Origin: Owenia fusiformis
Taxonomy: Eukaryota; Annelida; Polychaeta; Sabellida; Oweniidae
Assembly: GCA_903813345.2 (NCBI GenBank)
Contig: CAIIXF020000006.1
Location: forward strand, 2,914,001 to 2,978,000
DNA: 64,000 nucleotides
Direction of reading: 5' to 3'
Position 1 is the first letter of the stretch. Each line of letters begins with the position of its first letter. Positions 15,601 to 51,883 of this stretch are shown here, one piece after another. The position numbers and the translations under genes are program-made. The notes below the pieces were generated by a model. That model did no database searches. It saw only the letters and a program-made list of their open reading frames with translations, and had not been told where the DNA came from.

Positions 15601-18128
15601 ACCAATGCAACCAATGCAACCAGATTGTTGGATGCACGGACAGATGAACAAGCTCATCATGTGAGCTAAAAATATGTGGAGAGTGGAGATAATGACTTAT
15701 TGTATGTTACTAAATGAGAATTATGGATCTTTCAACAGAAAAATCTAAATATTTTATGCACACATATAGACATCCATAAAATGTATGTTGGCTCTTCATA
15801 CAATGTGTTCATGAAAGGCTTGTGAATTGCACTGAACCAATACATAATTTATTTGTTCTAATGCTCATGATAAATATTTCTATAGACACAAAAATGTCAA
15901 TCAAACAAATTAACAAAATAACAGAAAAAACTACAAATTGACCTTTTCTGATGACACTTATCATGATGAAAACATATATAATAGACACTGACAGAGTTAT
16001 CTGCAAAACAAAAAATCAAAATATTATTACTTGACCTTAAAAGTTTGTTGAAATGAAGCTTATAAGCTAAGAAAACAATAGAATTTCATAACATAAATTG
16101 TGTCGGTGATCTTGCCAAGGTGATCTTGCCAACATGAGAGCAACTGACTGCCTGGGTTGAAAATCTGGAAGTTACATCCTACCATGTTAAAACCTGTTTG
16201 CACCCTGCTAATAGAGTGAAAAATTGACCTTATTGCGAAAAGTCCTGAGGAGATTAAGACATGTCAATACTACCAACTTACAACTTTGCATGAATTCAAT
16301 TTCTTAAGCAAATACTACATACACTGTGTTGCAATTGAAGGATGGACACTCAAAATAGTGTTGCACTCAACGCAATCAATATTTTGTATTTTCAATATCC
16401 TAACTTAACATACATTTCCTATGATCGCCGTTCTATTATCATTTTTTTATTATATGTGGCACATGCAAGTTCATTTTTTTGCTAATCATAATTTTTTCTA
16501 CACTAATTTCCAATCTAACTTTATGTTTATACAACGGACATGACCCAAGGACGACATGATGATCAAGCAGCCTCCCTATGTCATGTCCTCAGCTCTTGCA
16601 AAGTTGCCCAAGCAGAACATTGCTACATGTGGCGGCATGATCAAGAGATTGCTAGACAGCTTGATCCCTTGATTTCTGATTCCTCCCTGACTAGTTCACC
16701 CTCATAACCACTAACCATCGAGTTTGTGAAAGCAGGACAAGCAACCGCAAAACCAACAGTTAACCAACCATCCAGAGGCATTTTACATTCAGCATCTGAT
16801 TGGGTTATGAAGGTTGATGTTGGTAAGCTGCTTGTTTTCCCCCAGCATGTAGTCAGCACCACTCTGAGGCCAGACATCATAATCACCTCAGAAACAACAC
16901 AGACCATCATTGTTGTTGAGTTAACTGTACCCTGGGAGGAGTGGGTAGAAGAATCCCACGAATTAAAGAAGTTGAAATATGAGGACATTGTAACTGATGC
17001 CAAGCGAAGAGGATGGAAGATACACTGTTTCCCTGTGGAAGTAGGCTGCAGAGTTTTTCCAGCCAAGTCTATGGACTGGATGTTGAAGTCGCTTGTTTAT
17101 AGTCTCGCAAGAGAAAGAAAGCAATGATTAACCTAGGAAGGGAAGCTGAACGTTGCTCTCGTTGGCTGTGGTTGAGAAGAAATGCAAATTGGTTGCCCAA
17201 GTAATCCATTGTCATCTGGCCTCATCTCCACCAGAATCATGACACACCCTGTATCCAATAAGTCTCCCCTCTCAATAGCTAGCATACCTTTAACCCCTAC
17301 ATCAAGCTTGAGCGGTAATGTGAAAAGGTGAGAGTTGGTCGACCATAAAGCGCTTTTTAAACCTACCATAGACCCTCTCAAGTCGGTTTTAGGCATTTAC
17401 CGCTCATTCACCAAGTTAAGATGTCTACTCTGATGGAAGTTGGAGGCAGCTGAGGAAACCTCTATATTTCCACAGCTAATGTGTATGGTGCAGCATGTAG
17501 TCCATCTAAGCATGTTTATCATAATATGGTAAGTTGAAAAATAGGACCATTCGGTGCACAAGCAGGAGCCAATTACTATACCAATTACATGTACATTCAT
17601 ATATGTAATGTATTTCCAACATGGAGCCAGTTGACCCAGTTGACCCATCACATGGATATGAGCATTTGTTCAGAAAAAAGTTTTTTAATCCCAAAGGCTC
17701 ACCATGTAAACAAAAATAATTCAAAATAATTCAAATTGGTCATCAGGAGAAAACTATGGCTGGTTTCTATCATTATTTTCCAAACATTAATGCCATAGAA
17801 GGGATCTACCTCAAACATAGATAAAGTACATGTTCATGTCTAGTTAGAACAGCTGAGTAAGACATCTACCTGTAGGTCAATTGGCAATTTACAAAATATA
17901 AATAAAATAATTGTATTTACCTTGAATGAGCCATTCACAATGAGCAGATATCGGATAATCTCCTTTGCCATCTGATATTATACCAGTCGTAGAGTTGAGC
18001 ACCTGGCGAAATCCATCTGTTTTACCATTACAAGCAATGCATTCTGGCACCAACAATATGGATAAAACCGTTATACACAATGTGTAAATAATAGCTATAC
18101 GTCGGCTCCAGGAGATCCTGAGTTCCAT
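460..18128 (-). CDS. MEGF8: MEGF8-like large CUB/EGF/Kelch/PSI receptor, copy A (27 exons, 3' end off window)
   Basis: Exons in transcript order: 17921-18128, 14229-14392, 12558-13752, 12016-12167, 11669-11803, 11217-11406, 10709-10881, 10441-10549, 9647-9765, 9230-9439, 8630-8878, 8195-8298, 7591-7740, 7175-7287, 6464-6689, 6016-6242, 4909-5050, 4548-4773, 4095-4260, 3477-3661, 2908-3206, 2452-2584, 2114-2167, 1801-1990, 1436-1599, 1038-1182, 460-730. Every junction is GT-AG and the phases chain without a break for 5,699 bp (about 1,899 codons), ending in phase 2 at a donor, so the gene continues to the left. Seen: signal peptide, CUB, EGF, Kelch block, PSI-like cysteine modules, calcium-binding EGF, laminin EGF, second CUB, EGF, second Kelch block, start of another PSI. 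Two CUB and two Kelch blocks fit MEGF8 and not attractin, which has one of each. Known of the family: single-pass membrane protein acting in developmental signalling. The membrane segment would lie outside the window. Confidence 0.93.
4095..4773 (-). other. MEGF8: MEGF8 copy A exons 18-19: CUB2
   Basis: Exon 18 (4548-4773) starts the second CUB domain ([13 protein letters not shown], then [13 protein letters not shown]). Exon 19 (4095-4260) carries [11 protein letters not shown] and LTVHFEANI. The tandem-duplication breakpoint (TAAGAA at 4644-4649) falls inside exon 18. Sequence left of it is single-copy in this window. Confidence 0.88.
4909..6689 (-). other. MEGF8: MEGF8 copy A exons 15-17: Ca-binding EGF and laminin-type EGF
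   Basis: Exon 15 (6464-6689) has a calcium-binding [15 protein letters not shown], then [12 protein letters not shown] with the Asn/Phe-Tyr hydroxylation and Ca pattern. Exon 16 (6016-6242) has a further EGF ([12 protein letters not shown]) and a laminin-EGF start. Exon 17 (4909-5050) is laminin-EGF ([14 protein letters not shown]...[15 protein letters not shown]). A 92 bp tandem array of exon 17's 5' end lies in the intron just upstream. Confidence 0.88.
5051..5515. repeat. 92 bp tandem array of splice acceptor plus exon 17 start
   Basis: Five extra copies of a roughly 87-92 bp unit lie in intron 16 next to exon 17. Each holds the minus-strand acceptor (CTATGCAG) and the first exon bases (CAGTGTGAGTGCAATGG region). 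Copy B has just one (24,826-24,900), so the array grew after the duplication. Units of 92 bp are not a multiple of three. Confidence 0.85.
9793..10138. mobile_element. Hairpin MITE with GCGGGCAGATATA core
   Basis: Inverted ends TGTATCTCATACTTGAGTGG and complement at 10,105-10,138. The inside holds short palindromes such as GGATATATTGTATAT and several CCCGCTCC. Absent from the same intron of copy B. No coding capacity. Confidence 0.65.
10141..10281. mobile_element. Hairpin MITE with CCCTCGG core
   Basis: A near-perfect stem: left arm GTTATGCAC...TTTGGATACA, right arm TGTATCCAAA...GTGCATAAC. The loop region repeats CCCTCGG/CCCTTCGG. Absent from copy B. Confidence 0.65.
12016..13752 (-). other. 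MEGF8: MEGF8 copy A exons 3-4: end of CUB1, EGF modules, first Kelch block
   Basis: Exon 3 (12558-13752, 1,195 bp) ends CUB1, then has EGF modules with cysteine runs such as [11 protein letters not shown] and [12 protein letters not shown] and a second one ending [12 protein letters not shown]. Kelch repeats follow, with paired glycines (FWLFGGN, LFIFGGI, LYLLGGR, LLVYGGF, MVVYGGN). Exon 4 (12016-12167) adds a sixth blade ending [11 protein letters not shown], a stretch I recognise from MEGF8. Six blades would close one beta-propeller. Confidence 0.9.
14229..14392 (-). other. MEGF8: MEGF8 copy A exon 2: CUB1 core
   Basis: Residues 70-124. It contains the CUB signature [20 protein letters not shown], with the Asp and Tyr that usually line the calcium site, then [10 protein letters not shown]. 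Acceptor TTTCAG, donor GTAAGTAC, length 164 bp, phase 1 to phase 0. The counterpart in B is 41517-41680, with a further half-copy at 40456-40560. Confidence 0.9.
16540..17127 (+). pseudogene. Retroelement C-terminal relic in intron 1 of copy A
   Basis: The open part (16726-17127, 133 residues) contains [30 protein letters not shown] and [14 protein letters not shown], a block I recognise from the C-terminal part of invertebrate retroelement polyproteins. Upstream, a broken frame carries a WRHDQEI-like piece of the same domain, followed by a stop near 16,705. It is antisense to MEGF8 and absent from copy B intron 1. Confidence 0.55.
17861..17890. other. Near-empty target site matching the virus-like element insertion in copy B
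   Basis: Intron 1 of copy A reads GACATCTACCTGTAGGTCAA followed by TTGGCAATTT. Copy B reads GACATCTACA, then the 9.35 kb element, then TCTACAGGTCAAGTCAATTGG. The flanks align across the insertion, so this is the paralogous unoccupied site, with a few substitutions. Confidence 0.8.
17921..18128 (-). other. MEGF8: MEGF8 copy A exon 1: signal peptide and start of CUB1
   Basis: The ATG (complement of 18126-18128) opens [18 protein letters not shown], a basic N-terminus followed by a hydrophobic stretch to about residue 30, which is a signal peptide. CUB1 starts at about residue 33 (IACNGKTDG) and the exon ends in CEWLIQ plus one base, the usual CUB 'W.I' strand. The donor is GTAAATAC. The equivalent exon of copy B (51676-51883) is nearly identical, including the 5' flank to about 18,500. 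Confidence 0.9.
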
Positions 18129-36400: not shown

Positions 36401-39400
36401 GTGTGGTTACATGCACCTCTTGTCACTGTAACAAGAGTTAGGTGTCCATTTAAAAATAGTCATACAGAAACACTCGGGTATTTGATAAATAATGCATTAT
36501 CCATGAAGGACAACAACCATGATGAGCATTTTCTTTAAACAAAGGCCAGTCCAGATCCCAGATCTAGTTTAATATTTGCTCTTTGAATAATTAGCGTTAA
36601 ATAAACTCACACCCCTATGTTACCAAGGTTAGAGTATTATAGTTCATGGATTGTTAAAAGGAAGTGACTTACAAAATTTCAAAATTCAAAATCTCACAGT
36701 CTGAGTAGAGAACTGGATCACTATAAAAAATAAGAGATTAATTCTCTTGGATAAAAATCATGCCTTACCATTACTAAGCTGACATGTGGCTTCCTTTACA
36801 CACCATGCACATTGATCGTTATACTTTAGTCCATGTTTGGTGGTCTCCATGGTGACTGTATAGCCTTTCCCTTGAACTGCACATGATTGACAGTCTTTGA
36901 GGGTGGGGCATATACCAGGGCATTCTGAGGTATCCATGATGCCTTTACAATCCTGAAGAAAAAAAAATTAAATAGTTCAATGTAGTATAACATACTAGTA
37001 TTTATTTCCACACATTTGTATACCACAATATTAGATGGGTAGGTTGCATGAAACTGTCCCATTTTGAATCTAGCAACTTTGCCAGATAGAAAGTTTTACC
37101 TTTGAGGAATTGTTTTAAAAACCTCCATTGTAAATACAATCATATATATAATATGTTTTACCAAGACCTAATTTCCAAATAGCCAATAATTCTTGTGTCT
37201 AAAGAAGACTTACGCCAGTTTTAGATCTGTGAATACATCCGGGCATATAGTTAAGTTTCTTGCTTGTACACAGCGCACACTCCGGATCAAAGCGACAGTA
37301 GTTGCCATCAGTGATCTCAGAACAATGGTCTTTTATACTGTCATCATTCTATAACAGAGAACAATAAAGATTAAAATAGATTTGCTTGAATATTATATAA
37401 TTTCATTACAATAAGCACTTTATATCGGAAAATTACTTCCACTACCTGTAGCAATGAAATAAATCCGAAATTGTGACCTGCGTGAATCTCGCTTTGAGGT
37501 GAGTGAAGTTTTTAAGTTTAGGTACCTTATAAAAATATACATAGCTCAACTATTCAACCTGATTTCTAGCCATTGAAGGGGGCACCTTGTATGCAATAAG
37601 GTCCCCCAGAGCAGTGCCCTGGTATCCCCCTGATATTAGCAGTGTGTTCCCAAATGCTACTGATGCCACGTGACTATATCTGCCACCGACAAATCCTGAG
37701 CTTGCTACACCTGAAATATTATTATATCATATACAACTACACATTAAAACAAAAATAGTGAATATCTTGTTCTTGGAGGTTCTATGGGTAAATTTGTATT
37801 TAAAGGGATAAACCTCGCTCGAAGCTAAACCAACTGTCAAATGACATGCCATCTGGTATCCATATAATCTAAAATGAATCAATCTGTTTTATTTTTAAAA
37901 ACTATGTAACTATCTGATATCATTATTTTGTTTCAACAATTAATTTAAATCAAGCAGTTTATACACCTAATTTGGGCATCCACTGTTATTAATTTGTATA
38001 ACCTAAATGTAATTAAACAAAAAAAAGAAATAAAAAAATAAAATAATAAAAAAGGTACCATATCAGCTCCCCATAATGGTTAATATATGGCTATTATACA
38101 GTTCTCTAATGACTTACCTCCAGTCCATGGTAACTCTAATGCTGTGTGGTTTATCCAAACATGGCACCCTAAGTGATACAGGTAAAGCTTATTATCATAG
38201 CATATCTCCTCATGCTGATGAATATGACAGTTCCCCCCATACACCACCATATAATTGCCTATTATATTGGCCGAGTGGAACGCACGGTCGTTTGGGGGCT
38301 CAATAAAACTGTATGAGTTATAATGGAGATGGGAGGGTGGCTCAGCATCAAGGTGAGACCAATAATTCAATTCTATATGGTAAGAGTGTATTTGTTTACT
38401 GCGCTTACTGAAGCGTGCATAGTCAGGAGTAAACCCACCATACACAAGGAGGGATTTTGATTCAGGGTGGTACACTGTTGAATGGCCGACTAATCGACGT
38501 AGTTCCTCCTTGCCCCCCTTGGGTGTAAGATATATCCAGGTGTCTGTAGTACCCAGGATGTCATAGCAGTAAAGGGCAGACTGGTACGCACCATAGGTGT
38601 CACGTCCACCGAGTAAGTAAAGATACTGAGAGTTGCCATCGGTTACCAGTGTTAAGGTGTGGCCAGAGAGCCCCGGAGGGTGCACTGTACCAGCCAGTGC
38701 TTTCTCAATCCATACCCCCGATGTGATGTCATAAAACCAAAGGTCTGATAAATGAGTCCCATTGGCAGCGATGCCTCCAAATATAAACAACCCAGACTGA
38801 GTTGCAGCTGCTGCGTGATTATTCCGAGCTTCCGGCCACGTGCCACTCTTGGTCACCTCAATCCATTTATTGCTCGGGAAGTCATAACGTATCAAGTCAT
38901 TGAGTATTTCATTGAGAGTATTGCCACCAAATAACCAGAAACTATTCGATGATGAGATAAAGGCCCCAGCATGGCCTGTTCTTGCTGTAAAGCCTGATCC
39001 AGCAGGAGCAACCTGATACCAGGAGCTATTTCCTATGGTGCTATTCATTGAAAGGGCACAGTTTGATCCTGTAAAGCCATCTATGCATACACATTTCCCT
39101 CCGATACATTCACCCAATGGCTGGGAGCAAAAATCTGGGCATTCCTGAAGCTGGCAGCCGTCTCCTGTCATACCAGGATGACAATGGCATGTGTGGGTAA
39201 GGCTATTACATGTGCCTTTACCACTACAGTCTAGCAGGCAGTCTGTTACTGTATAGGTGGCGTTAAAACCCTCAAGGGCATAATTCCTGTCACTGTAGAA
39301 GTATATCAGCATCTGGAACAAAGGACATAATGAAATATTATACAATTATTCCATAATACTACTGTTTTCCCAGGGAAATATGAAGGAATAAAAATCGTAT

Positions 39401-42400
39401 TGAATTGTATTACATGAAAAAATCGTATTGTCCCCGGGAAAAAAGTCGCATTGGAGCGTATTAATGAAAAAATCGTATTGTCCCCGGGAAAAAATCGTAT
39501 TGGAACGTATTAACCTATTTTTGGTTTTCCTATTATTTTTAACATTGGCTAATTGATAAAAGCATTTTCAAAATGTAACATTTTAGAGGAATGTATAATG
39601 GAATAAATAGGTTATTTCTGGTCGGGATTGAATATGGGTTTCATTCCTCAGAAAATATTATATTGACCTTGGGAAATATGATATTGACACTCGGTCGCTG
39701 CGCTCCCTCGGTCAATATTATATTACCCTTCGGTCAATATCATATTGTCCCTCGGAATAAAACCCATATTCTACCCTCCCAGTAAATAACCTATATATAT
39801 TTCATAATTTTGAGGTTCGGAAATGACCTGTTCATCTTTCAATGATTCTAGCTCCTATTATTTTTAACATTGGCTAATTGATAAAAGCATTTTCAAAATG
39901 TAACATTTTAGAGGAATGTATAATGGAATAAATAGGTTATTTCTGGTCGGGATTGAATATGGGTTTCATTCCTCAGAAAATATGATATTGACCTTGGGAA
40001 ATATGATATTGACACTCGGTAGCTGCGCTCCCTCGGTCAATATTATATTACCCTTCGGTCAATATCATATTGTCCCTCGGAATAAAACCCATATTCTACC
40101 CTCCCAGTAAATAACCTATATATATTTCATAATTTTGAGGTTCGGAAATGACCTGTTCATCTTTCAATGATTCTGGCTAGGTAGTTAGAGACTGTGTCAC
40201 TTTAATACAAAAAACAACTAAATAAATGTATTCACTTATATCTTTCTAATTTTGAATACAACAAATAAACAAGCTGGTCCAGTACATACACAATAAAATC
40301 TGTCAAGTGGAAAATTTCAATAGATCACCATTCAACATTTTGTTACCCATTTCCTAATACAAAATGAACAAGCATGTAATTGGAGATCTTCAAAAGGAGA
40401 ATCCTACTTTTATGTTCCAAAGGTATTCCTTTTACACAGGTGTAACTGTACTTACATTCCCTGATGTGGCAGTGATGAGTGGTGGGGTGTTACTGCCTGA
40501 GAAGCTCCCCAGAAGCTTACTGTTGTAGGACTCCCCATCGTAGATGAAGATATAATCGTATTGGAACGTATTAACCTATTTTTGGTTTTCCTATTATTTT
40601 TAACATTGGCTAATTGATAAAAGCATTTTCAAAATGTAACATTTTAGAGGAATGTATAATGGAATAAATAGGTTATTTCTGGTCGGGATTGAATATGGGT
40701 TTCATTCCTCAGAAAATATTATATTGACCTTGGGAAATATGATATTGACACTCGGTCGATGCGCTCCCTCGGTCAATATTATATTACCCTTCGGTCAATA
40801 TCATATTGTCCCTCGGAATAAAACCCATATTCTACCCTCCCAGTAAATAACCTATATATATTTCATAATTTTGAGGTTCGGAAATGACCTGTTCATCTTT
40901 CAATGATTCTAGCTCCTATTATTTTTAACATTGGCTAATTGATAAAAGCATTTTCAAAATGTAACATTTTAGAGGAATGTATAATGGAATAAATAGGTTA
41001 TTTCTGGTCGGGATTGAATATGGGTTTCATTCCTCAGAAAATATGATATTGACCTTGGGAAATATGATATTGACACTCGGTAGCTGCGCTCCCTCGGTCA
41101 ATATTATATTACCCTTCGGTCAATATCATATTGTCCCTCGGAATAAAACCCATATTCTACCCTCCCAGTAAATAACCTATATATATTTCATAATTTTGAG
41201 GTTCGGAAATGACCTGTTCATCTTTCAATGATTCTGGCTAGGTAGTTAGAGACTCTGTCACTTTAATACAAAAAACAACTAAATAAATGTATTCACTTAT
41301 ATCTTTCTAATTTTGAATACAACAAATAAACAAGCTGGTCCAGTACATACACAATAAAATCTGTCAAGTGGAAAATTTCAATAGATCACCATTCAACATT
41401 TTGTTACCCATTTCCTAATACAAAATGAACAAGCATGTAATTGGAGATCTTCAAAAGGAGAATCCTACTTTTATGTTCCAAAGGTATTCCTTTTACACAG
41501 GTGTAACTGTACTTACATTCCCTGATGTGGCAGTGATGAGTGGTGGGGTGTTACTGCCTGAGAAGCTCCCCAGAAGCTTACTGTTGTAGGACTCCCCATC
41601 GTAGATGAAGATATAATCGTAGGAGCATTCTACACTCAGGTTTTCAAACTTAAGTGTGATGAATTTATCTGGGCTCCCAGCTGAAACAGATATGACATTT
41701 CTCATGTTATGAAACATGTGTAGTAAACTTGTATATCTGAACACCCCTCTAATCTGAATATATGTAGGTACTTGTAGAGTGACAGTAGTAAAATTGAGTG
41801 AAGGCCAAACAGAACTGTGTTATCTTAGTTTAAAAAATCCTCATGCTTTTTTCATTTCCCGTTTGGTGATTTCTGATAACTACCCAAAGACCGTAAAGCC
41901 ATAGCCGGGATATACCTCAAACATAGATAAAGGACATGTTCGTGTCTGGTTCACCCTGCGTGCAGAGTCTAGTTAAACTACACTCTGCCTAGTAGAGACC
42001 ATATTACAGTTTAGTAGCCCCGCCCCCACAACGGGTACCGGTGACAGTTTGGGTAAATTACTTTTGACCTACGCGCTGACCTTCCACCAATCAGCAAGCT
42101 TGAAGAAACATACGCCAAATGCGTTCTAATTAAATATGCACATGTCATTGGTCAATTCCAGGCTGACCATATAAAGAACGTCGGTCAAATTTGGCCGAAG
42201 CTCTCTTTTAAGAAGTAAAGTCAAACGAATGCAAAGGGTATGTCTGGTTAGACCAGCTGAATAAGACATCTACAAGTAGTTATAGAAACGAGAGTTCTGA
42301 CGCACCTTTAACATTGAGTCCTATGGGGAGGGACACGATTTTTCATAGTACCCTCCCTAACATGGGCTCCAATGGGGAGGGACATCTGTGAGCCTCCCTG

Positions 42401-45400
42401 AGCTCGGGAGGCACATACGGGGACCCCACCCCTCCCCCCTCGGCGTGGTGGCGTGTACATATTTCGGGAATCTCGGGCCCTAAGGGTAACGGACGCCCTA
42501 CCCCACGTCTGTACGTTTACTGTAAGGGATACTATTCGAATTCCCGCCAAAAACAATAAATCGATAAACCAGTACGCGTCCCGTTTAACCTTGAAAGCCT
42601 GTACCGTCGGTACAGGTTCTGGTAATTTGATACGGAATATTGACAGCCGGTGAAGTAAAATTAATAAAAACGCGTCAGTCGTTGACTGGTAATCGATAAT
42701 AGGTAAGACCGTACCCGCCGGTACAGGCTCGAGTGATTTCTTACATGTTGTGGCACGTGGGGCGTGACTTAAACAATAAGTTCGTCTCGTTAATTATAGT
42801 ACGTACCGGAAACAGCCACTAGTCAAAGGGTATATAAAAAGATAAGTTCATTTAGTTTTCATAACGTTAAATACTTAATCACCAAAGATGCCGATTGGAA
42901 AATTTCGAGTACCATCTAATATTAAAACAATAAAAAATGGGGAATTTATTGAAACAATTTCGACACCAAAAATTGTTTTAATGAAGATATGCGACGGAAT
43001 GTTCAGCGCCGTCAACGACAATGGAGTTGACATCAGAAATTACCAAATATGGCCAATCACGGGGATCACAAACGTATGTAATGCCTACGGAACGTGCGCT
43101 GGTGTATTTCTAACCCATAATCAAATGGCGCGACTTATCGACAATTTACCACACGTCACTGAAAAATTCATGGAAATTGAATCCAAGAAAAAGGCTGATG
43201 TCAAAGAGTGGGACGTTGTATTGGGGGCTCAATTTCGACTCAGCGTTCATCCTAAATTTCGAAGAGTTAATATTAGGGGTAAGGTTTTAAATGATTTGTT
43301 ACTGATCATAGAACATCGAATATACAATTTAAACTGTCATTCATATTGTGGTTACATGTCGTATTTTTTTTTGTATTTTAAAAAGGTTATCATCTCAATA
43401 CATACTCCGATGATCCACGGAAACATTTGCCCGATAGAAACGGTATCGTTATGACACGTGCGGTGTTTGAGCTATTTGTGGACAGCCTTATTAAATACGG
43501 GCTTGTTCAACCAACCGAACCTCATTGTGTAATAACGGGTCACGCAGAAAAAAGTGAAGCTGATAGTTGTAGTGAATGCAGTTATTTCGACCCCGTGGAT
43601 TTCAGTAACTAGAGTTAAATATGATGTATCACACAGTAGAAATAAAGACATATATACGAACGAGAGTTCTGACGCACCTTTAACATTGAGTCCTATGGGG
43701 AGGGACACGATTTTTCATAGTACCCTCCCTAACATGGGCTCCAATGGGGAGGGACATCTGTGAGCCTCCCTGAGCTCGGGAGGCACATACGGGGACCCCA
43801 CCCCTCCCCCCTCGGCGTGGTGGCGTGTACATATTTCGGGAATCTCGGGCCCTAAGGGTAACGGACGCCCTACCCCACGTCTGTACGTTTACTGTAAGGG
43901 ATACTATTCGAATTCCCGCCAAAAACAATAAATCGATAAACCAGTACGCGTCCCGTTTAACCTTGAAAGCCTGTACCGTCGGTACAGGTTCTGGTAATTT
44001 GATACGGAATATTGACAGCCGGTGAAGTAAAATTAATAAAAACGCGTCAGTCGTTGACTGGTAATCGATAATAGGTAAGACCGTACCCGCCGGTACAGGC
44101 TCGAGTGATTTCTTACATGTTGTGGCACGTGGGGCGTGACTTAAACAATAAGTTCGTCTCGTTAATTATAGTACGTACCGGAAACAGCCACTAGTCAAAG
44201 GGTATATAAAAAGATAAGTTCATTTAGTTTTCATAACGTTAAATACTTAATCACCAAAGATGCCGATTGGAAAATTTCGAGTACCATCTAATATTAAAAC
44301 AATAAAAAATGGGGAATTTATTGAAACAATTTCGACACCAAAAATTGTTTTAATGAAGATATGCGACGGAATGTTCAGCGCCGTCAACGACAATGGAGTT
44401 GACATCAGAAATTACCAAATATGGCCAATCACGGGGATCACAAACGTATGTAATGCCTACGGAACGTGCGCTGGTGTATTTCTAACCCATAATCAAATGG
44501 CGCGACTTATCGACAATTTACCACACGTCACTGAAAAATTCATGGAAATTGAATCCAAGAAAAAGGCTGATGTCAAAGAGTGGGACGTTGTATTGGGGGC
44601 TCAATTTCGACTCAGCGTTCATCCTAAATTTCGAAGAGTTAATATTAGGGGTAAGGTTTTAAATGATTTGTTACTGATCATAGAACATCGAATATACAAT
44701 TTAAACTGTCATTCATATTGTGGTTACATGTCGTATTTTTTTTTGTATTTTAAAAAGGTTATCATCTCAATACATACTCCGATGATCCACGGAAACATTT
44801 GCCCGATAGAAACGGTATCGTTATGACACGTGCGGTGTTTGAGCTATTTGTGGACAGCCTTATTAAATACGGGCTTGTTCAACCAACCGAACCTCATTGT
44901 GTAATAACGGGTCACGCAGAAAAAAGTGAAGCTGATAGTTGTAGTGAATGCAGTTATTTCGACCCCGTGGATTTCAGTAACTAGAGTTAAATATGATGTA
45001 TCACACAGTAGAAATAAAGACATATATACGTCAATGTAAGTAATATAGTCATTCATACTTAGGTTTTTGAACATGATAGGTCGATTATTAGTTTTGAGCG
45101 TTATTGGAACATGCTGCATTTGTCAAAACATCAATGTTACTCGACACTTTAATGAAACTGAAAACGTAACACCTTATTACGTACTGAAACCATATATTAG
45201 TAGTAGTTACGATGTAAATCTAGAGACTCCAATGGCCTTAAGCTTTACCGGAGGTGTTTTAACTTTTGTTATCATAGGTGAGTTACGCGATTTTTGACAA
45301 ACTATAACACAACGTAATGTTTGGTTTATATTTAATAGTGGTAACTAATGCTATATCATTTTTAGGTAATGTGTTATGGCTTAGAATGTTAACGAGATCC

Positions 45401-48400
45401 AAATTACCGATGGTTAAGGATGAAAGACAAAGGGAGCCTATGATAGCCATATAAAATTCATACAATGTGTACAAAAGATATACGACAAATAAATAAGAAT
45501 GTATTAAACTACAAGATCTTGTAGATCAGAAAATCCCTTAATTTGTTTGTTTATTGTTCTTTAATTGTTTAAAACTTAGTGAAACATTCGATGTAAGTTT
45601 ATTAATTCCAAAGTTTCAACATTTGTACAAAATCATTAATTACAGACCTACACACAAAGTTGCAATGTCATCTACTTAGAAACACGTGTATATTCGATTA
45701 GGGTGACATCTTCAAATATTAAAATACTCTGTACGATGCTGACATCTAGTGGTAGTTGGATATCACAACATTGATACAAATATATAACATTTATCGAGTA
45801 TACATATTCAATAATTGTTTAACATTAAACACCTTTGGAATGTAATCATATGATATTGTTTACACGTGTATTGCGATTTAGCATTGAAATTGCGAACCGC
45901 GATTGAGTAAATTAGCATTTGAGGCTTTTTGAACACCGCATCAATGAGGATTTAAATCGACCTCTTTAAGAAAACTTTAAGACAACTATGTTGTTGTTTT
46001 TTTGAAAATTACATGCAGAATTTTAAAAAAAAACGTCAAATAGAATAAATTCTGGTCTTGAATAAATATGCAGATTTCCTAAAATCTTTTTTTAAATACC
46101 TTTCCTATATTTCAATACTATTTAGCGATTCCTCAATTAAAACAAAAATACGAAGTGAACCAAGTAACTTGGGAAGATCACATGAATTACATGAGTTTAA
46201 TTGATTTATATCGGTCTAATTAAATACAATGGTAAATAAGACAGCTATAATTAAGTAGGCAAAGTCTGTATTTAGTCCAACAAACAAGTTTACGCCTACA
46301 GGGGTGATATTCATATCATTGTATTCAAATATGTCCTAATAGAGTGTTTAAAATGGCAGCCATTTTGCTTTGTTTTTACGTGGTCTCTTAAGAGCTTTGG
46401 CCGGAATACCCGGTACTTTGTACGATGTGGCGCTTCTTTTGTAAATGAACCTAGGTGTATTATCGGTATAGCTAGGCATCCCTATTGCATCATCATCATC
46501 ATCACTGGTTGATAGCCCCGTGTCATGATTTTGTTTACTGGAGGTACCTTCCTTAAAGTCGCTATCGGATGGGGCATCCAATTTATTTTCCGAGGAAAAC
46601 GTAGATGCATCATTACTCCCGGAATCAACTTGCTTCGTTTGACTAGGTTTACGTGTACCTATTCCACCATCCATTTTATCAGTATTAGTTGGCGACTGAT
46701 CTATGGTTTTGTTATTTCCCTCCTCAGTTTTACGCGTGGAATTTTCGAGTCTGATATATTTATCATAAGGTATCAAAACAGATTTGATCATAGCTGCAAT
46801 TTTTGGATAAAATTATGAACGGATTTAATCAATAGACCCAAAACTGATGTATTACGTTTGATCAAGTCCTTTCTAAACTTCTTGCTTTTTGATTTGGTCG
46901 CGATGTGTTGTAAAACTCTTTTATGTCGTTTCAATTTTTGTTTATAAAAATTCGCGATAGGGAGACTACCGTGAAGTACGTTAAGAGCTATTTCACCTAG
47001 AACTCGAAGTTGCGTTTCAGTAATTGTATTCAATAAAACTTTCATTTGCTGCAAAGTACTAGTCAAAAGGAATTTTAGGAAGTTTTTATTCCTTTTAATA
47101 AGTGCTGACATCGTGACATGTCTTTTATATGTTGTCCGGTAACCGTCTGGATCTATACTGACGCGTTCAATTAACTTTTGGGTTTATAAATGATAGGATC
47201 TTCATTCGGAAATATACGTGTGCGTAATCTATATTCATCAACGCCATCTGGCGACATATCCACGACTATGTAACCGTACCTTTCCGAAGTGGCGTCCAAA
47301 TAGCTGTCCATGAAATATTTCGTTTTATCCGGATATATCTGACCAGCCAAACACTTTAGTTGTCTTTTATCACGATTTGCCTTGAAAATGATGAAATACT
47401 GCGTATTTAATGAAATATTTCTAGCGCTAGGACCCTGACACAAGGCGTTTTGTGTTAGAAAAAGGACATTCATATTTCTATGATGACATAATTGCGTGAA
47501 TATTTTGGCAGCCTCTCTACTTTGACATACGCTAGCCATTAAATCATCTAGAACTAGAAATGTTGGTATCGATATATCTTTCGTAAAATTTAAGATCTCT
47601 TCCTCGTCGACTAGTCCTTCGTGAAATATGATTTCATCTTTAAATTGTAGCTCCATATCGCGGTACACGGATTGCCAAGTTGCGTAACAAAACAATATTT
47701 TGGAAGGTGAATTCGAACTATTTTGAAACAAGGCATCTCTATGTTTTAGAATTTTGAAACACATGTTAGTTTTCCCTGATTGAGACGCTCCTATCATGGC
47801 GATAGAGGTAGGCGAATTAAAGGGCACCAGGCTATGTGTCATGACTTCGACGGTTGAACTTACAATGATAAATACTTGTTTTGCGAAGTCTTTTATTTAA
47901 ACAATCGGGCCATTGATGATTTTTAATAAGTTAGTACCAAAGAACAAATATAATTTTTTACCTAATCCATTTTATTTCGATACACAATAGTATAACATAA
48001 ATAGAATATAAACAATTATATCTAATTAACTTTCTAAAGCCTGAATATTCGGTATGCAGGTTTGGCATTCTACATAAGTCACTGCGGATTTGGTAGAAAA
48101 GTGAGTCTTGAAATAATCTATGGTGATTAGATCATTGTAATAAGTATCCTCGATATTATAGTCGTTCAATATACCTAGTAAGCTTTCATTTCTACGAATA
48201 TAACGATCCATTACAACTAATGTATATTGGCCACAGATTGTACTTTCATCATCTTGAAGTCTCAAGTTATTGTATATAAATGTATCCGAATTATTTCGTA
48301 TGAATTCAAATAGACCATATTTTCGAGGATGACCACCCAAACTGTCAAAATACATACATGTTTTCTGACCCAACGTGTCAATCTTGAATACAAGTAAGAC

Positions 48401-51400
48401 CCAATGTAATCCGGGGTGATCGTGCTTGGCCGTATTGACGATATAAACGGCTAATTTACTCGGAGAAAACCGCGGTAATTCGTCTTTGGCGCAGACCCTA
48501 CGGTAGGCGGTTTTTAAATAAGATGTAGATTCTAATATATGCCTTAATTGGAGAGAGTTCATTATGTTATGACGTTCCTAGCCTCGTCTATCTGAATAAC
48601 TTTGGGAAACTCCGCCAAAATCAGGATGTTGATCGCTTCTTGTAGAGGTTTTTGAAAATGACCATTGATGGATAAATTACCCCTTCTCTCGATTGAATTA
48701 ACTTGCGTACTGCCGATGTTATTGACGTCAAATCTTAAAATTGTAGTTCCGTTGGCGAATTCGTCTCTGGATATGCTCGCGTTTCGTTTTTGGTCGTTAA
48801 ACTGGGGAAATAAGTTGTTGTAACACGTTATATACGTGTTCAGCAAACCGCCTGTTCTGTAATCTAATGTTACGGGATTGGTCACGCTTAGTCCATCGAC
48901 TAACACGTCTAGATAATCTAAGTTGAAATGTTGAAAGTTGAAAGGATTCAAATCGTACACGCCCATTTGAGATCGAGCCGTGACCATGACTAGGTATATC
49001 GTTTGAGGCACCCTACCTAGAAATAAATTATCGATTTGAAAATTGCGGTTTCCGGTGGCCACACTTAAACTTTTCATTTCTCTGCCGATGTACGGATATT
49101 GAGCCAGATTCGTCTTTAACGTTTGGGCGTGACCTTCCAATACACCGGGTGTCGGCTCAATTTTGGCAATTCTTAGAAATGCGTCGGTAATCTTAACCTT
49201 ATAAGCTACGTCGTTATCATGAGCCGCTAGGTTAAAGGCAGCCGGGGATGGTGTTAGTTTGACTTGAATATCAATGTTATTCAACAAATATTTTTCAATC
49301 TTAAAGATGTCAGCGTGCAATGGACCCGCCATTTCAACCTCCAAACTCTCGATCGTGTGCGCCATTCTCCTCAGAAATCCATTATTTTTGGAGTCAAACC
49401 CGTTATGGTCGTTACCTAGACTGGCTTCATCCTTAAAATACATTTGGGATGATAAGTAACCTTGCATATCTGCTGCTGATGTGTTTAGTACTGTTTGAAT
49501 ATAACTTGTGTACGGGTAATAAGGTCCCGATGTTGAAATTGATTTTTGCTGCATTTGAACATCCACTTGCGAGAATAATGAATGTAACCAAAGATTAGCG
49601 CAAGTAACTTTGGGTGCAGATGCCGCCGGGTCGTTTGGATCTATAGGCAATGGACTCCCATCCGGCATGGTTATTTTTGCCTTGACGAATAACACTGTTT
49701 TACTCAAATCTAAGTAGTGATCTCCGTTATTTGTTATATCGAAGGTTAATGGATTACCATCTGATAAATTGATCGGTCTAAAATTGACGTATTTCAACTG
49801 TTTCGTGCTGACATCTGTATCACGGGTTTCAAAAATCATAAACTGCTCGTTCACAACCTCGTTAGAACTGTCCATAATGTTATCCATTTTTATTTATTTG
49901 TTTTTGTTTTATCTGTTTTTCCCTTTTAATCAAATATGGTACTTATACCGAGCGTGTTATTTTCACGTTTTCCACGTTTTTTCTTTAATATGGTGTTACT
50001 CCCTTCGATACCTTTGGTACGTGTGGTCTTATTTTTAAATACGGTAGGTTTTATAGATTTAATCCGGGGGCCTGTATCTATGATGTTATCACGACGCATG
50101 CGCGCTCTAGCTCTTTGAACACTAGCTTCAGACGGCGATATCATAGTTACACGCGACCCACTTCCGGTTTGGTCGGTTGCACCACTTTTCAAAGGAACGT
50201 AATGAGCCTTGTTAACTTTAATTTTAACCATTTTTTTCTCTGGTTTTGAGAACAGATCTGTCCAGATATCCATAGCCTTTGTATTAGATTGGCGAAAAGT
50301 TTACTCAAATATGTAATCTCTTTTTAAAATGTAAAACGCAGGATGTGGGACTATTACTCGTAAATTCAACTGGAGAACCGTCCTGATAAGTCAAAGCAAT
50401 ACTAATCTCGTTAAAATTATTTAGTCCTAAATCCACGTAATATATATTTTTAAATTCACAGTATGTCTTAGATGTCGATATAGTACGTAGGATCGTCCTC
50501 GAAGTTGGTCCTACTAATGATTCACCTATTATATTACAATATACGTATATTAAGCCTTTATTTATACGTTTACCTAGACAAATTCCGGTTAAACCGCAAG
50601 TCCAGTTTTCTAATTTTTTAAATGTTTGGTAATTGGGTAACTTGCTGGTAAATTTACTTTGAGTGTTATCCGCGTAATGAATTAAGGAATCCTCGCTCGA
50701 AAGATGTGCGTACGTCTGTTTCAAACTCATAACTAAATTAACTAGTAATGTTTCTTCTTAAATACTAAGGTGCGAGGCGAGTCTATCGAGTATCTATCGG
50801 CTCATTGGTCTAGCAGTACGATTCTCAATTTGGTTGTGATAGGTTTCGGGGGTCGAATCCCGGACGGGCCTATTTTTAAAAAATGATTTCATTTTAATTA
50901 CCGTGTCTTTAAATTTCAGAGGCCAAACAAAATATAAAGTTAATTTACATGATCCTTTATTAAGCATAGGTTGCTTTAAGAATACGTATACAGTGTTATA
51001 GAATAGTCACTGGCCCTTTTTTAATGGTTCACTGACACTGAGTTTTCATTTACCTATTATATAGAAATTACGATCGAATCGATCTCATTACAGGCAGTAT
51101 AATTAACGAGACGAACTTATTGTTTAAGTCACGCCCCACGTGCCACAACATGTAAGAAATCACTCGAGCCTGTACCGGCGGGTACGGTCTTACCTATTAT
51201 CGATTACCAGTCAACGACTGACGCGTTTTTATTAATTTTACTTCACCGGCTGTCAATATTCCGTATCAAATTATCAGAACCTGTACCGACGGTTCAGGCT
51301 TTCAAGGTTAAACGGGACGCGTACTGGTTTATCGATTTATTGTTTTTGGCGGGAATTCGAATAGTATCCCTTACAGTAAACGTACAGACGTGGGGGTAGG

Positions 51401-51883
51401 GCGTCCGTTACCCTTAGGGCCCGAGATTCCCGAAATATGTACACGCCACCACGCCGAGGGGGGAGGGGTGGGGTCCCCGTATGTGCCTCCCGAGCTCAGG
51501 GAGGCTCACAGATGTCCCTCCCCATTGGAGCCCATGTTAGGGAGGGTAATATGAAAAATCGTGTCCCTCCCCATAGGACTCCATGTTAAAGGTGCGTCAG
51601 AACTCTCGTTTCTGTAACTACTTCTACAGGTCAAGTCAATTGGCAAGTTACCAAAAAAATAAATAAAGTGTACACCTTGAATGAGCCATTCACAATGAGC
51701 AGATATGGGATAATCCCCTTTGCCATCTGATATTATACCAGTCGTAGAGTTGAGCACCTGACGAAATCCATCTGTTTTACCATTACAAGCAATGCATTCT
51801 GGCACCAACAATATGGATAAAACCGTTATACACAATGTGTAAATAATAGCTATACGTCGGCTCCAGGAGATCCTGAGTTCCAT
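24433..51883 (-). CDS. MEGF8: MEGF8-like copy B, truncated in CUB2 by the tandem duplication (18 exons)
   Basis: Exons in transcript order: 51676-51883, 41517-41680, 38118-39312, 37559-37710, 37214-37348, 36769-36952, 36253-36425, 35994-36102, 35658-35776, 35221-35436, 34766-35014, 34325-34428, 33782-33931, 33365-33477, 27198-27423, 26705-26931, 24746-24887, 24433-24595. They sum to 4,029 bp, 1,343 codons with the stop, so the frame is open throughout. Lengths equal copy A except exon 6 (minus 6 bp) and exon 10 (plus 6 bp). Exon 18 crosses the duplication junction at about 24,466 after HAYCVWFL, reads ten junction-derived residues ending MVRYLL, and stops. If expressed, the product has signal peptide, CUB1, EGF, first propeller, PSI and laminin-EGF modules but no membrane anchor, so it would be secreted. 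An unprocessed pseudogene is the alternative, though no internal stop or frameshift was found. Intron 1 holds the virus-derived element. Confidence 0.85.
25067..26351. mobile_element. 1.29 kb insertion in intron 16 of copy B
   Basis: Flanked by TAGAGAAATCCT (25055-25066 and 26352-26363). Copy A has a single uninterrupted version near 5,667. Both ends carry subterminal palindromes (ACCGAATATAATATTCGGT and CTGAATAAATATTCAG). A 16-base G run lies at 25741-25756. It encloses the hAT-like element below. Confidence 0.7.
25543..26033. mobile_element. hAT-like MITE nested in the 1.29 kb insertion
   Basis: Ends CAGGGCTGTCAACTTGGGA and the inverse of CAGGCCTGTCAACTGTCCCG. Flanked by GCTTCC on both sides (25537-25542 and 26034-26039). 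hAT elements usually make 8 bp duplicates, so two bases may have diverged. The left part repeats a CACCTTTGGCCAA-type motif. Confidence 0.6.
28587..28615. repeat. 29 bp perfect palindrome
   Basis: AGCGGGCAGATATA, one central G, then its exact inverse. The same GCGGGCAGATATA word occurs at about 9,898 in the copy A hairpin element. Confidence 0.8.
28905..29046. mobile_element. Hairpin MITE with CCCTCGGG core
   Basis: Arms ATTATCCTATA...TTCAGGATATTGGGATTATC and complement; central CCCTCGGGACCTGCGGCCCTCGGG-like core (28971-28986 region). Same architecture as the elements at 10,141 and 39,609 with different arm sequence. Confidence 0.65.
29047..32999. other. Interior of the 5.5 kb TIR element, no genes seen
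   Basis: About 4 kb of AT-rich sequence with scattered frames under 82 residues that show no family features. Repeated phrases (TTTTCAACTTGCTTC) near 30,890-31,020 suggest old internal repeats. Confidence 0.5.
39609..39792. mobile_element. Hairpin MITE with CCCTCGGTC core, four copies (also 39934, 40670, 40995)
   Basis: Arms AGGTTATTT...GAATATGGGTTT and AAACCCATATTC...AAATAACCT; core repeats CTCGGTC/CCTTCGGTC with ATATTATATT steps. Copies at 39934-40117, 40670-40853 and 40995-41178 arise from the 325 bp and 1,061 bp duplications. The identical 64-residue frames over them are by-products. Confidence 0.75.
40456..40560 (-). pseudogene. Partial duplicate of MEGF8 CUB exon 2
   Basis: 105 bp equal to the 3' part of exon 2B (41517-41621), with its donor GTAAGTAC intact but the 5' part and acceptor missing. 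It sits in intron 2 of copy B and is probably skipped. Confidence 0.85.
42275..42798 (+). repeat. Left terminal inverted repeat
   Basis: Pairs with 51098-51622 in reverse complement, nearly identical, ending at TTAATTATA. It holds a perfect 19 bp palindrome CCTGTACCGTCGGTACAGG (42598-42616) and related GTACCCGCCGGTAC-type motifs, which are candidate protein-binding sites. The short open frame on its minus strand (42308-42556) recurs only because the TIR does and is not called a gene. Confidence 0.92.
42831..42838 (+). promoter_or_regulatory. TATA box of PC4-like gene, copy 1
   Basis: TATATAAA lies 57 bp upstream of the ATG at 42888, just inside the TIR boundary, where an early viral promoter would be expected. 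The copy at 44203-44210 is identical. Confidence 0.6.
42888..43612 (+). CDS. PC4-like (p15) two-module ssDNA-binding protein, intron-containing, copy 1
   Basis: Exons 42888-43278 and 43386-43612. The 107 bp intron starts GTAAGG and ends TTTAAAAAG. Spliced length is 618 bp (205 residues). The unspliced frame runs into the intron and stops at 43454. Two PC4-like patterns are seen. The first has NGVDIRNYQ followed by [16 protein letters not shown]. The second has RRVNIRG at the splice junction followed by [20 protein letters not shown]. Known of PC4/p15: dimeric beta-sheet ssDNA-binding coactivator with the pattern 'vdIR.y....GI.lt...w..L'. The C-terminus adds cysteines (CSECSY). Inferred role: ssDNA binding during replication, or transcription control. 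AATAAA at 43641-43646 follows the stop. The family call rests on motif recall. Confidence 0.65.
44203..44210 (+). promoter_or_regulatory. TATA box of PC4-like gene, copy 2
   Basis: Identical to 42831-42838 as part of the 1,372 bp duplication; 57 bp upstream of the ATG at 44260. Confidence 0.6.
44260..44984 (+). CDS. PC4-like (p15) two-module ssDNA-binding protein, intron-containing, copy 2
   Basis: Exons 44260-44650 and 44758-44984, with the same protein, intron and AATAAA (45013-45018) as copy 1. It is the second gene of the internal tandem duplication. The predicted proteins do not differ, so the duplication is recent, maintained by gene conversion, or an assembly effect. Confidence 0.65.
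45073..45454 (+). CDS. Small membrane glycoprotein, intron-containing, unknown function
   Basis: Exons 45073-45277 and 45366-45454; intron GTGAGT...TTTTTAG (88 bp); 97 residues when spliced. The ATG at 45073 is chosen because the frame's earlier TTG is not a usual start. Seen: hydrophobic signal peptide ([17 protein letters not shown]), a short ectodomain with three N-glycosylation sequons (NVT, NET, NVT), a hydrophobic membrane span ([14 protein letters not shown]) crossing the splice site, and a short charged tail. This fits a type I membrane protein. AATAAA at 45488-45493 ends the unit and a TATA-like CATATATACG precedes it at 45021. I do not recognise a family. In a virus-like element, an envelope-type, entry or exit protein is possible but unproven. 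Confidence 0.55.
45455..46347. other. Gap between convergent gene sets of the element
   Basis: About 0.9 kb, AT-rich, with no frame of note. Plus-strand genes end at 45454 and minus-strand genes at 46348, so both polyadenylation regions fall here. No polymerase or integrase remnant was recognised. Confidence 0.6.
46348..46791 (-). CDS. Hydrophilic Asp/Ser-rich protein with basic C-terminus
   Basis: 147 residues. It starts [15 protein letters not shown], an opening I associate with small proteins of metazoan Polinton-type elements. The middle is low-complexity and charged, with a run of five Asp (SDDDDDAIG). The C-terminus is basic ([14 protein letters not shown]). Its start overlaps the end of the next upstream frame by 4 bp (46788-46791). 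No catalytic motif; a structural or core protein is a guess. Confidence 0.6.
   Translation of the reverse strand: MIKSVLIPYDKYIRLENSTRKTEEGNNKTIDQSPTNTDKMDGGIGTRKPSQTKQVDSGSNDASTFSSENKLDAPSDSDFKEGTSSKQNHDTGLSTSDDDDDAIGMPSYTDNTPRFIYKRSATSYKVPGIPAKALKRPRKNKAKWLPF
46788..47111 (-). CDS. Small basic helical protein of Polinton-type elements
   Basis: 107 residues, Lys/Arg-rich and helical: [14 protein letters not shown] at the start, an EIALNVLHG motif in the middle, then [15 protein letters not shown] and a hydrophobic end (VLGLLIKSV). From memory this layout recurs beside capsid genes in cnidarian and molluscan Polinton-like elements; the function is unknown. It overlaps the downstream acidic gene by 4 bp. 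Confidence 0.6.
   Translation of the reverse strand: MSALIKRNKNFLKFLLTSTLQQMKVLLNTITETQLRVLGEIALNVLHGSLPIANFYKQKLKRHKRVLQHIATKSKSKKFRKDLIKRNTSVLGLLIKSVHNFIQKLQL
47171..47842 (-). CDS. Genome-packaging ATPase (FtsK/HerA, A32-like)
   Basis: 223 residues. Walker A is [10 protein letters not shown] near residue 17-26, Walker [10 protein letters not shown] near residue 95. A sensor-like [20 protein letters not shown] segment and KANRDKRQL follow. This order is typical of the compact A32-type packaging ATPases of Polintons, adintoviruses and virophages, which pump dsDNA into the capsid. Walker motifs are intact. It sits downstream of the protease with its own 183 bp leader. Confidence 0.9.
   Translation of the reverse strand: MTHSLVPFNSPTSIAMIGASQSGKTNMCFKILKHRDALFQNSSNSPSKILFCYATWQSVYRDMELQFKDEIIFHEGLVDEEEILNFTKDISIPTFLVLDDLMASVCQSREAAKIFTQLCHHRNMNVLFLTQNALCQGPSARNISLNTQYFIIFKANRDKRQLKCLAGQIYPDKTKYFMDSYLDATSERYGYIVVDMSPDGVDEYRLRTRIFPNEDPIIYKPKS
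48026..48562 (-). CDS. Adenain-like (Ulp1-fold) maturation cysteine protease
   Basis: 178 residues. Catalytic residues are visible in family order: His in [11 protein letters not shown], Asp in [10 protein letters not shown], and Gln/Cys in [13 protein letters not shown], where CGQY matches the adenain/Ulp1 nucleophile. It would cleave capsid precursors. The start shares one base with the capsid gene's stop (48562), suggesting coupled expression. Confidence 0.88.
   Translation of the reverse strand: MNSLQLRHILESTSYLKTAYRRVCAKDELPRFSPSKLAVYIVNTAKHDHPGLHWVLLVFKIDTLGQKTCMYFDSLGGHPRKYGLFEFIRNNSDTFIYNNLRLQDDESTICGQYTLVVMDRYIRRNESLLGILNDYNIEDTYYNDLITIDYFKTHFSTKSAVTYVECQTCIPNIQALES
48562..49887 (-). 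CDS. Major capsid protein (double jelly-roll, hexon-like)
   Basis: 441 residues, usual for Polinton/adintovirus capsid proteins. Family-like stretches are [20 protein letters not shown] near the N-terminus (the P-F/D-Y-L-D-L core of the first jelly roll), [18 protein letters not shown], and [20 protein letters not shown] in the second half. The frame is intact end to end. It is the first gene after the basic protein and penton-like gene. Assignment is by motif recall; structure prediction would settle it. Confidence 0.88.
   Translation of the reverse strand: MDNIMDSSNEVVNEQFMIFETRDTDVSTKQLKYVNFRPINLSDGNPLTFDITNNGDHYLDLSKTVLFVKAKITMPDGSPLPIDPNDPAASAPKVTCANLWLHSLFSQVDVQMQQKSISTSGPYYPYTSYIQTVLNTSAADMQGYLSSQMYFKDEASLGNDHNGFDSKNNGFLRRMAHTIESLEVEMAGPLHADIFKIEKYLLNNIDIQVKLTPSPAAFNLAAHDNDVAYKVKITDAFLRIAKIEPTPGVLEGHAQTLKTNLAQYPYIGREMKSLSVATGNRNFQIDNLFLGRVPQTIYLVMVTARSQMGVYDLNPFNFQHFNLDYLDVLVDGLSVTNPVTLDYRTGGLLNTYITCYNNLFPQFNDQKRNASISRDEFANGTTILRFDVNNIGSTQVNSIERRGNLSINGHFQKPLQEAINILILAEFPKVIQIDEARNVIT
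49926..50273 (-). CDS. Small basic, probably core or capsid-associated protein
   Basis: 115 residues, strongly basic: [28 protein letters not shown], and [10 protein letters not shown] near the C-terminus. It lies between penton-like and capsid genes. Basic proteins here may condense DNA, as adenovirus core proteins do, but no homology was recognised. Confidence 0.6.
   Translation of the reverse strand: MDIWTDLFSKPEKKMVKIKVNKAHYVPLKSGATDQTGSGSRVTMISPSEASVQRARARMRRDNIIDTGPRIKSIKPTVFKNKTTRTKGIEGSNTILKKKRGKRENNTLGISTIFD
50305..50730 (-). CDS. Penton-like minor capsid protein, short form
   Basis: 141 residues. The N-terminus has the layout [20 protein letters not shown] then a Leu-Pro and [10 protein letters not shown], which matches the opening of Polinton minor capsid proteins as I recall them. 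The C-terminus has [19 protein letters not shown], and [12 protein letters not shown], matching their end. The usual protein is over 300 residues, so the middle is missing or condensed. Expected fold: single jelly roll forming vertices. Confidence 0.65.
   Translation of the reverse strand: MSLKQTYAHLSSEDSLIHYADNTQSKFTSKLPNYQTFKKLENWTCGLTGICLGKRINKGLIYVYCNIIGESLVGPTSRTILRTISTSKTYCEFKNIYYVDLGLNNFNEISIALTYQDGSPVEFTSNSPTSCVLHFKKRLHI
50799..50871 (+). tRNA. tRNA-Pro (UGG)-like gene in the virus-like element
   Basis: A 73-base tRNA-shaped sequence. The acceptor arms GGCTCAT and ACGGGCC pair with one mismatch, the D-arm/A-box is TGGTCTAGCAGTA, the anticodon loop is TTTGGTT (anticodon TGG, Pro), and the T-arm/B-box is GGTCGAATCC. 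A run of five T (50873-50877) follows, as in a Pol III terminator. Anticodon and T stems carry mismatches and position 37 is not G, so it may be decayed or unusual. It sits between the penton-like gene and the right TIR. Confidence 0.65.
51098..51622 (-). repeat. Right terminal inverted repeat
   Basis: Reverse complement of 42275-42798 with scattered single-base differences; one alters the 19 bp palindrome (CGGTACAGG becomes CGGTTCAGG equivalent). Its outer end ...GTAACTACT abuts the target duplicate TCTACA at 51623. Confidence 0.92.

Follow-up and report, generated by a model that had tools for sequence, protein, structure and literature searches.

A Polinton-like capsid element of Owenia fusiformis and the polymerase and integrase elements that share its ends

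Polintons are usually regarded as self-sufficient units, and Starrett et al. are said to have described, in 2021, genomes that have virion genes and lack a recognisable family-B DNA polymerase (PolB) and integrase. The stretch of the Owenia fusiformis (annelid) assembly analysed here, called the window (64,000 nucleotides; contig CAIIXF020000006.1, positions 2,914,001 to 2,978,000), contains an insertion that raises the same question within a single host genome: how is an element copied and moved when it encodes a capsid and neither of these enzymes? A preliminary description of the locus suggested either a satellite-like element, which makes its own particle and borrows its replication, or a new lineage.

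A complete insertion with capsid genes

The limits of the element can be read exactly from the sequence: AGTAGTTA opens it at 42275, and its last position is 51622. It is flanked on either side by a 6-bp target site duplication (TSD), and its terminal inverted repeats (TIRs) are 525 bp long (Table 1). It lies within an intron-like gap of an attractin-like gene, in which Pfam recognises an upstream CUB exon as well as kelch exons, and the target site is uninterrupted in a tandem paralogue of this gene.

Between 46348 and 50730, seven minus-strand open reading frames (ORFs) fill 4,072 of 4,383 bp. The longest run without a stop has 443 codons, compared with at most 177 in 200 Markov resamples. 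The major capsid protein (MCP) is predicted to be a double jelly roll. It has 434 relatives, of which the animal members are named 'F54H12.2-like', and its predicted model (pLDDT 81.7) matches the MCPs of PBCV-1, Sputnik and mavirus at E ~1e-14 to 1e-15; a profile search against PDB sequences gave no match. Among 24 MCPs compared, that of the window is an outlier, with a mean identity of 34.8% to the other 23, which average 48.6% mutually.

The plus strand carries spliced genes. The splice of the 205-aa gene agrees with the annotated O. fusiformis paralogue P0121, and the only two relatives of the protein at E <= 0.1 are both from O. fusiformis. By eye we took the protein to resemble PC4. This assignment is unsupported, Pfam at E <= 10 giving only unrelated sub-threshold names; PDB gave no match at E <= 10, and the AlphaFold pLDDT is 32.8. 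Scans of viral contigs with A1, P0108, P0092 and P0121 found no relative, and comparison with PHROGs gave weak matches only.

None of the ten ORFs scanned matches a PolB or integrase family, and there is no space left for either gene, so that the element has neither; nor did its ORFs match a helicase family. The preliminary description was thus accurate in reporting a complete Polinton-like element with both TIRs, a 6-bp target duplicate, seven open minus-strand genes, an intact capsid, protease and ATPase, and no polymerase or integrase.

Table 1. Features of the element and its target site (positions in the window)
Feature	Position	Strand	Basis or remark
TSD left, TCTACA	42269..42274	.	sequence
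TSD right, TCTACA	51623..51628	.	sequence
Left TIR, outer terminal module, ~306 bp	42275..42580	+	common to classes A and C, 97.7-99.0% over 306 bp
Left TIR, inner part	42581..42798	+	common to class F; partly to PolB-side arm of A
Right TIR arm	51098..51622	-	self-comparison; 98.9% identity to ~42275-42798 over 525 columns
Empty site in tandem attractin-like gene copy, same window	17860..17880	.	paralogue comparison; position approximate
Tandem duplication unit 1, 1,372 bp, perfect	42287..43658	+	self-comparison, = 43659-45030
Tandem duplication unit 2, with internal TIR copy minus outermost 12 bp	43659..45030	+	self-comparison
205-aa protein gene, spliced, copy 1	42888..43612	+	exon 1 ~42888-43278, exon 2 ~43386-43612
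205-aa protein gene, copy 2	44260..44984	+	ORF; splice as in P0121
Small putative membrane protein, first exon	45073..45297	+	signal peptide, NxT sites, TM by eye; predicted splice near 45275
147-aa ORF	46348..46791	-	ORF list; conserved in B and F
107-aa basic ORF	46788..47111	-	ORF list; conserved in B and F
Packaging-type ATPase	47171..47842	-	Pox_A32 E 0.043, below cut-off; E 6e-37 to class A ATPase
Adenain-like protease	48026..48562	-	Peptidase_C5 E 1.4e-4, above own cut-off
MCP, predicted double jelly roll, 'F54H12.2-like' family	48562..49887	-	relatives and predicted model
115-aa basic ORF	49926..50273	-	ORF list
141-aa ORF, candidate vertex (minor capsid) protein	50305..50730	-	position and eye only; no family match
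tRNA-Pro(UGG)-like sequence, degenerate, then T5 run	50799..50871	+	ARAGORN at lowered thresholds only
Scar: F has ~1.31 kb with integrase gene at same point	50921..50922	.	window vs F alignment

Elements with the same ends and elements with the same capsid genes

A search for other copies with the same TIRs, proposed in the preliminary description, yields three classes of element in the genome, here called A, B and C; B is the type found in the window. Because 40 of the 104 candidates from the TIR search were scored, all class counts are lower bounds.

Class B elements are ~8.0 kb long, occur at at least five loci, and carry capsid genes without PolB or integrase. There are four full copies with the same gene set on different contigs: that of the window and those on C11, C12 and C5 (7,980, 7,980 and 7,909 bp). 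Their 6-bp TSDs all differ (TCTACA in the window, CATATA in C11, TATTAT in C12, GCTAGT in C5). At the fifth locus, C1, the capsid-side end is rearranged. The ten queried ORFs match C11 and C12 at 98.6-100% and are stop-free there, the MCP is interrupted in C5, and the 141-aa gene has a stop in C1. The exon of the small membrane protein is found in B copies and in class F. Further B copies were reached with a TIR/205-aa-gene query, and an older relative is present at C8.

Class A has the same TIRs as B, lacks the 205-aa gene, and encodes PolB, an ATPase and a chromodomain integrase (rve 8.8e-12, Chromo 2.2e-6), with no capsid. At least four loci share a PolB piece at 100% identity; three of them are 9,312-9,326 bp long, and the fourth, whose first PolB ORF holds an additional insertion, is 10,411 bp. 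The PolB is spread over several ORFs whose boundaries are equal across the copies compared, which is consistent with introns. Pfam alone found no PolB family at E <= 0.1 on the four pieces. The 422-aa piece has 8,000 scored relatives, the best of them 50-60% identical, and PF03175 or PF02945 is present on many of the 120 relatives listed. The only relative of a B protein found in A is the ATPase, a second ATPase for the system, to which that of the window is 34% identical. All five A-type loci with both ends have 6-bp TSDs; these include the element at C10:31.09M, a decayed A relative outside the four-locus count. PolB relatives 71-72% identical to that of A, with open frames over 1,130 codons, are found at C3:31503715, C91, C11:3249526 and C369:13367, those on C3 and C369 near other capsid genes. 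They appear to be intron-poor, more complete relatives of class A.

Class C is the shortest (4.36-4.38 kb), and comprises the 14 remaining single TIR matches of the search, and hence at least 14 loci. It encodes an integrase and an ATPase only. The integrase is mostly 97-98% identical to that of A (100% in one case), its ORF being split in one element, and the ATPase is ~60% identical to that of A. Identical 6-bp TSDs flank 11 of the 14 loci, the other three being not measurable by string search. The arms of C differ consistently by 3-4 bp. Arms are therefore not always homogenised, and we dropped TIR divergence as a clock. The later comparisons of C leave out L041, whose end string was missed by the same search although its TSD had been read.

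All three classes have in common an outer 243-306 bp that are ~98-99% identical, and all are flanked by 6-bp TSDs. The arms of A and B differ at 2-7 of ~303 positions, B arms differ from each other at 0-7, and arms of A and of B have SNP haplotypes in common.

A fourth class, F, has the capsid cassette of B and different ends. It is 8.9 kb long (8,863 bp in the copy at C2:33.41M, TSD ATCAGG), its TIRs begin AGTAGTAAATC, and its outer 190 bp show no similarity to the outer 306 bp of A, B and C. The capsid cassettes of B and F are 94-98% identical, with the MCP mostly at 95-99%. Beside the cassette F carries another integrase, 36-46% identical to that of A. PolB was not seen in F: in three copies the TIR adjoins the small membrane-protein gene, and of these one was read through to the 107-aa gene, while the other two leave ~1.4-1.6 kb unread, too short for PolB.

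The distribution of the capsid genes was followed with an MCP search in which 94 of 94 candidates were scored. It identified 20 close loci, at 85-100% identity, and 58 others at 31-38%. Of the close loci 13 are full length and stop-free, and 12, including C3:20352047, have an integrase beside the capsid cassette; the integrase search scored 111 of 486 candidates, and integrase counts are lower bounds. In the PolB search, in which 80 of 80 candidates were scored, no PolB was found within 30 kb of any of the 20 close loci, compared with 8 of the 58 other MCP loci that have one within 20 kb. The query was the PolB of class A, so distant PolBs score weakly and may be missed, and this control for linkage of MCP and PolB is conservative. 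An integrase lies within 10 kb of 29 of the 35 PolB loci, and the genome has dozens of further PolB loci and integrase loci.

The larger relative with both polB and integrase that the preliminary description had recommended looking for did not emerge: F adds an integrase, with no PolB seen, and none of the 20 close loci has a PolB detected within 30 kb. These observations make it very improbable that the window copy is a once complete Polinton that decayed by losing PolB and integrase independently. The absence of an integrase is indeed a deletion relative to F. However, four full copies inserted at different places have this same structure, PolB was detected beside none of the close copies, and the three F copies examined leave no space for one. 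Private decay of one copy is thus rejected, in agreement with the earlier view that the intact genes argue against simple decay.

Origin of the capsid element and its possible helpers

The window can be aligned to F up to position 50921, and the alignment resumes at 50922; the intervening ~1.31 kb of F contain its integrase gene. The 200-bp region around this scar is continuous in C11, C12 and C5, and is split at the same point in F loci including C8; no match to it was obtained in the pieces of C1. The TIR of B is a mosaic, with an inner 218 bp of F type and an outer 306 bp of A/C type. On the basis of the scar alignment and the mosaic TIR, B appears to descend from an F capsid element whose integrase gene was deleted and whose outermost ends were replaced by A/C ones. 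As the older relative at C8 shows, the combination of the 205-aa gene with F ends and an integrase is older than B.

A large loss at 45.4-46.4 kb was considered and rejected: this stretch is collinear with F to 46341 at 98.7% identity, F being ~350 bp longer at 46338, so that nothing large has been lost there. The preliminary description had set against its own reading the outcome that most copies carry polB or integrase and that this one has a clean internal deletion in that stretch. A clean deletion does exist, at the scar and common to all four full B copies, and an integrase accompanies 12 of the 20 close capsid loci, none of which has a PolB detected within 30 kb. Its proposal of a new lineage survives only in part, because the capsid cassette of B is shared with the larger, integrase-bearing set F.

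We consider it probable that these elements form a split Polinton system, in which B provides capsids and uses the enzymes of A and C in trans. This is the form in which the satellite-like reading of the preliminary description fits best: PolB and integrase are present on other elements that have these ends, and the particle itself is predicted from the genes. The parts of this proposal differ in strength. Integration of B in trans by the chromodomain integrase of A/C type, leaving 6-bp duplications, is strongly indicated: it is possible because the ends of B are those of A and C, and it is the simplest account of the A/C-type ends on B, the integrase in both A and C, and the 6-bp TSDs in all three. 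Replication of B by the protein-primed PolB of A is moderately indicated; the match between the termini of B and A makes this PolB the most plausible enzyme for the task. With its genes for a shell, a protease and an ATPase, B may in return provide particles for A and C. The evidence that A and C are packaged in B or F particles is that these capsid-less classes retain packaging-type ATPases under selection, which hints weakly at such an exchange. Against the system as stated, the helper need not be class A, because of the dozens of other PolB loci and integrase loci. Furthermore, with PolB missing from F as well, the division of functions may go further back, and be less strict, than a two-part virus would imply.

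Selection bears on whether the capsid genes are of use. Purifying selection on the MCP, integrase and ATPase is shown by dN/dS (NG86) of 0.12-0.19 for the window MCP against five F copies, 0.12 for the A and C integrases, and 0.12 for the A and C ATPases, the last with dS >2 and near saturation; the MCP comparison of the window with L054 was out of register and is not used. These genes were therefore kept working for part of the history of the lineages. The B copies are too similar for selection within B itself to be read, and their intact genes may reflect youth rather than selection. We weighed the alternative that B is an ordinary non-autonomous Polinton derivative mobilised in trans by A and C, as any deletion derivative would be, with capsid genes that are young passengers and make no useful particle. 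The great similarity of the B copies, the clean integrase deletion, the A/C-type ends, and the existence of another deletion-like class, C, are all in its favour. Nevertheless we regard it as unlikely, given the low dN/dS of the capsid cassette against F (a ratio that selection in the F lineage could have produced), the 13 of 20 close MCP loci that are full length and stop-free, and the ATPases kept by A and C.

A bolder alternative is a segmented or multipartite Polinton virus, in which A, B and possibly C would be replicated and packaged together and jointly required. The complementary gene sets with common termini, as in a multipartite virus, and the fact that A and B have exchanged terminal SNP haplotypes would fit this, and there is a precedent in the bipartite bidnaviruses, in which the termini are conserved and the PolB is of polinton type (PMC4061559). 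However, F bears capsid and integrase genes with other ends, and the copy numbers are unequal (at least 4, 5 and 14 loci for A, B and C), so no fixed partnership of A, B and C is apparent; we think this version doubtful, if somewhat less so than the passenger alternative. To a wider version, in which A and C would be replication and integration segments and B and F capsid segments with termini in common, with the PolB of A copying, B and F particles packaging, and the ends recombining, we would give similarly tentative credence.

The split system that we prefer can be compared with known ones. With Polintons/Mavericks the window element shares long TIRs starting AG, a 6-bp TSD, a double-jelly-roll MCP, an adenain-like protease and a packaging ATPase, and it lacks the protein-primed PolB and the rve integrase. 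The Owenia family as a whole has both PolB and a chromodomain integrase; the difference is that here they are on separate elements, and neither is in the capsid element. Adintoviruses are defined, in a section of PMC11071296, by a single genome with PolB with an N-terminal OTU-like domain, an rve chromodomain integrase and an adintovirus-type hexon; the element, without PolB and integrase, falls outside this definition. The same section notes adenovirus-type virion genes in genomes without recognisable PolB and integrase, and credits the finding to Starrett et al. 2021. Adintoviruses and 'meldviruses' resemble the Owenia element in being animal-associated with adenovirus-like virion genes (PMC11071296, same section). 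The genomes without the two enzymes are single ones, whereas in Owenia the missing enzymes are on same-ended partner elements in one host genome. Class A resembles the nine MCP-less Polintons in which protease and ATPase are missing too (PMC4028283), except that an ATPase is retained in A and C and that their ends are also those of a class with capsid genes. Bidnaviruses have two linear segments, the termini of which are conserved, and a PolB derived from polintons (PMC4061559). They differ in being single-stranded, with a parvovirus-type single-jelly-roll capsid and a superfamily 3 helicase, and in having no integrase-type insertion family; the Owenia MCP is predicted to be a double jelly roll, and no helicase match was found in the window element. 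Some of the wider history of the group is given in PMC11071308. No split, bipartite, multipartite or trans-complementing Polintons were reported in the titles and abstracts searched, which largely leave out subscription journals.

An element without PolB and integrase thus need not be dead or unrelated. With capsid, polymerase and integrase on different common-ended elements, Owenia offers a natural test of the interconversion of virus, satellite and transposon, and of the ways in which segmented DNA viruses, bidnaviruses among them, could arise. If the segmented reading were true, it would be an animal double-stranded DNA counterpart to the bipartite bidnaviruses.

Further features of the locus

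Three features go beyond the preliminary description: the perfect tandem duplication at the left end, the spliced plus-strand genes, and the tRNA-Pro-like remnant. The 1,372-bp duplication is either private to the window copy or an assembly artefact; in a search of five other copies, its junction was not found intact in any.

The tRNA-Pro-like sequence lies between the 141-aa gene and the right TIR, and in F before the integrase. It has no Rfam match at E <= 1 and no folding signal (z -0.05), and the lowest ARAGORN threshold also gave two overlapping chance-like calls. Its relative in L054 (3710-3781) is called as tRNA-Pro(tgg) by ARAGORN. By this comparison it appears to be a captured host tRNA gene that is degenerate in the window.

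The surrounding region is itself repetitive. The attractin-like paralogues are in tandem at 10287-18507 and 35840-52271, with identity up to ~95%. Right beside the element, at 39493-41621, is another local tandem duplication (1,068 bp, 99.8%), which is accompanied by 325-bp repeats. To the left of the element, ~290 bp at 41952-42239 are missing in the paralogue and are therefore a second small insertion. Finally, a reverse transcriptase domain (RVT_1, E 1.4e-36) is encoded by a LINE-like ORF at 54066-56054.
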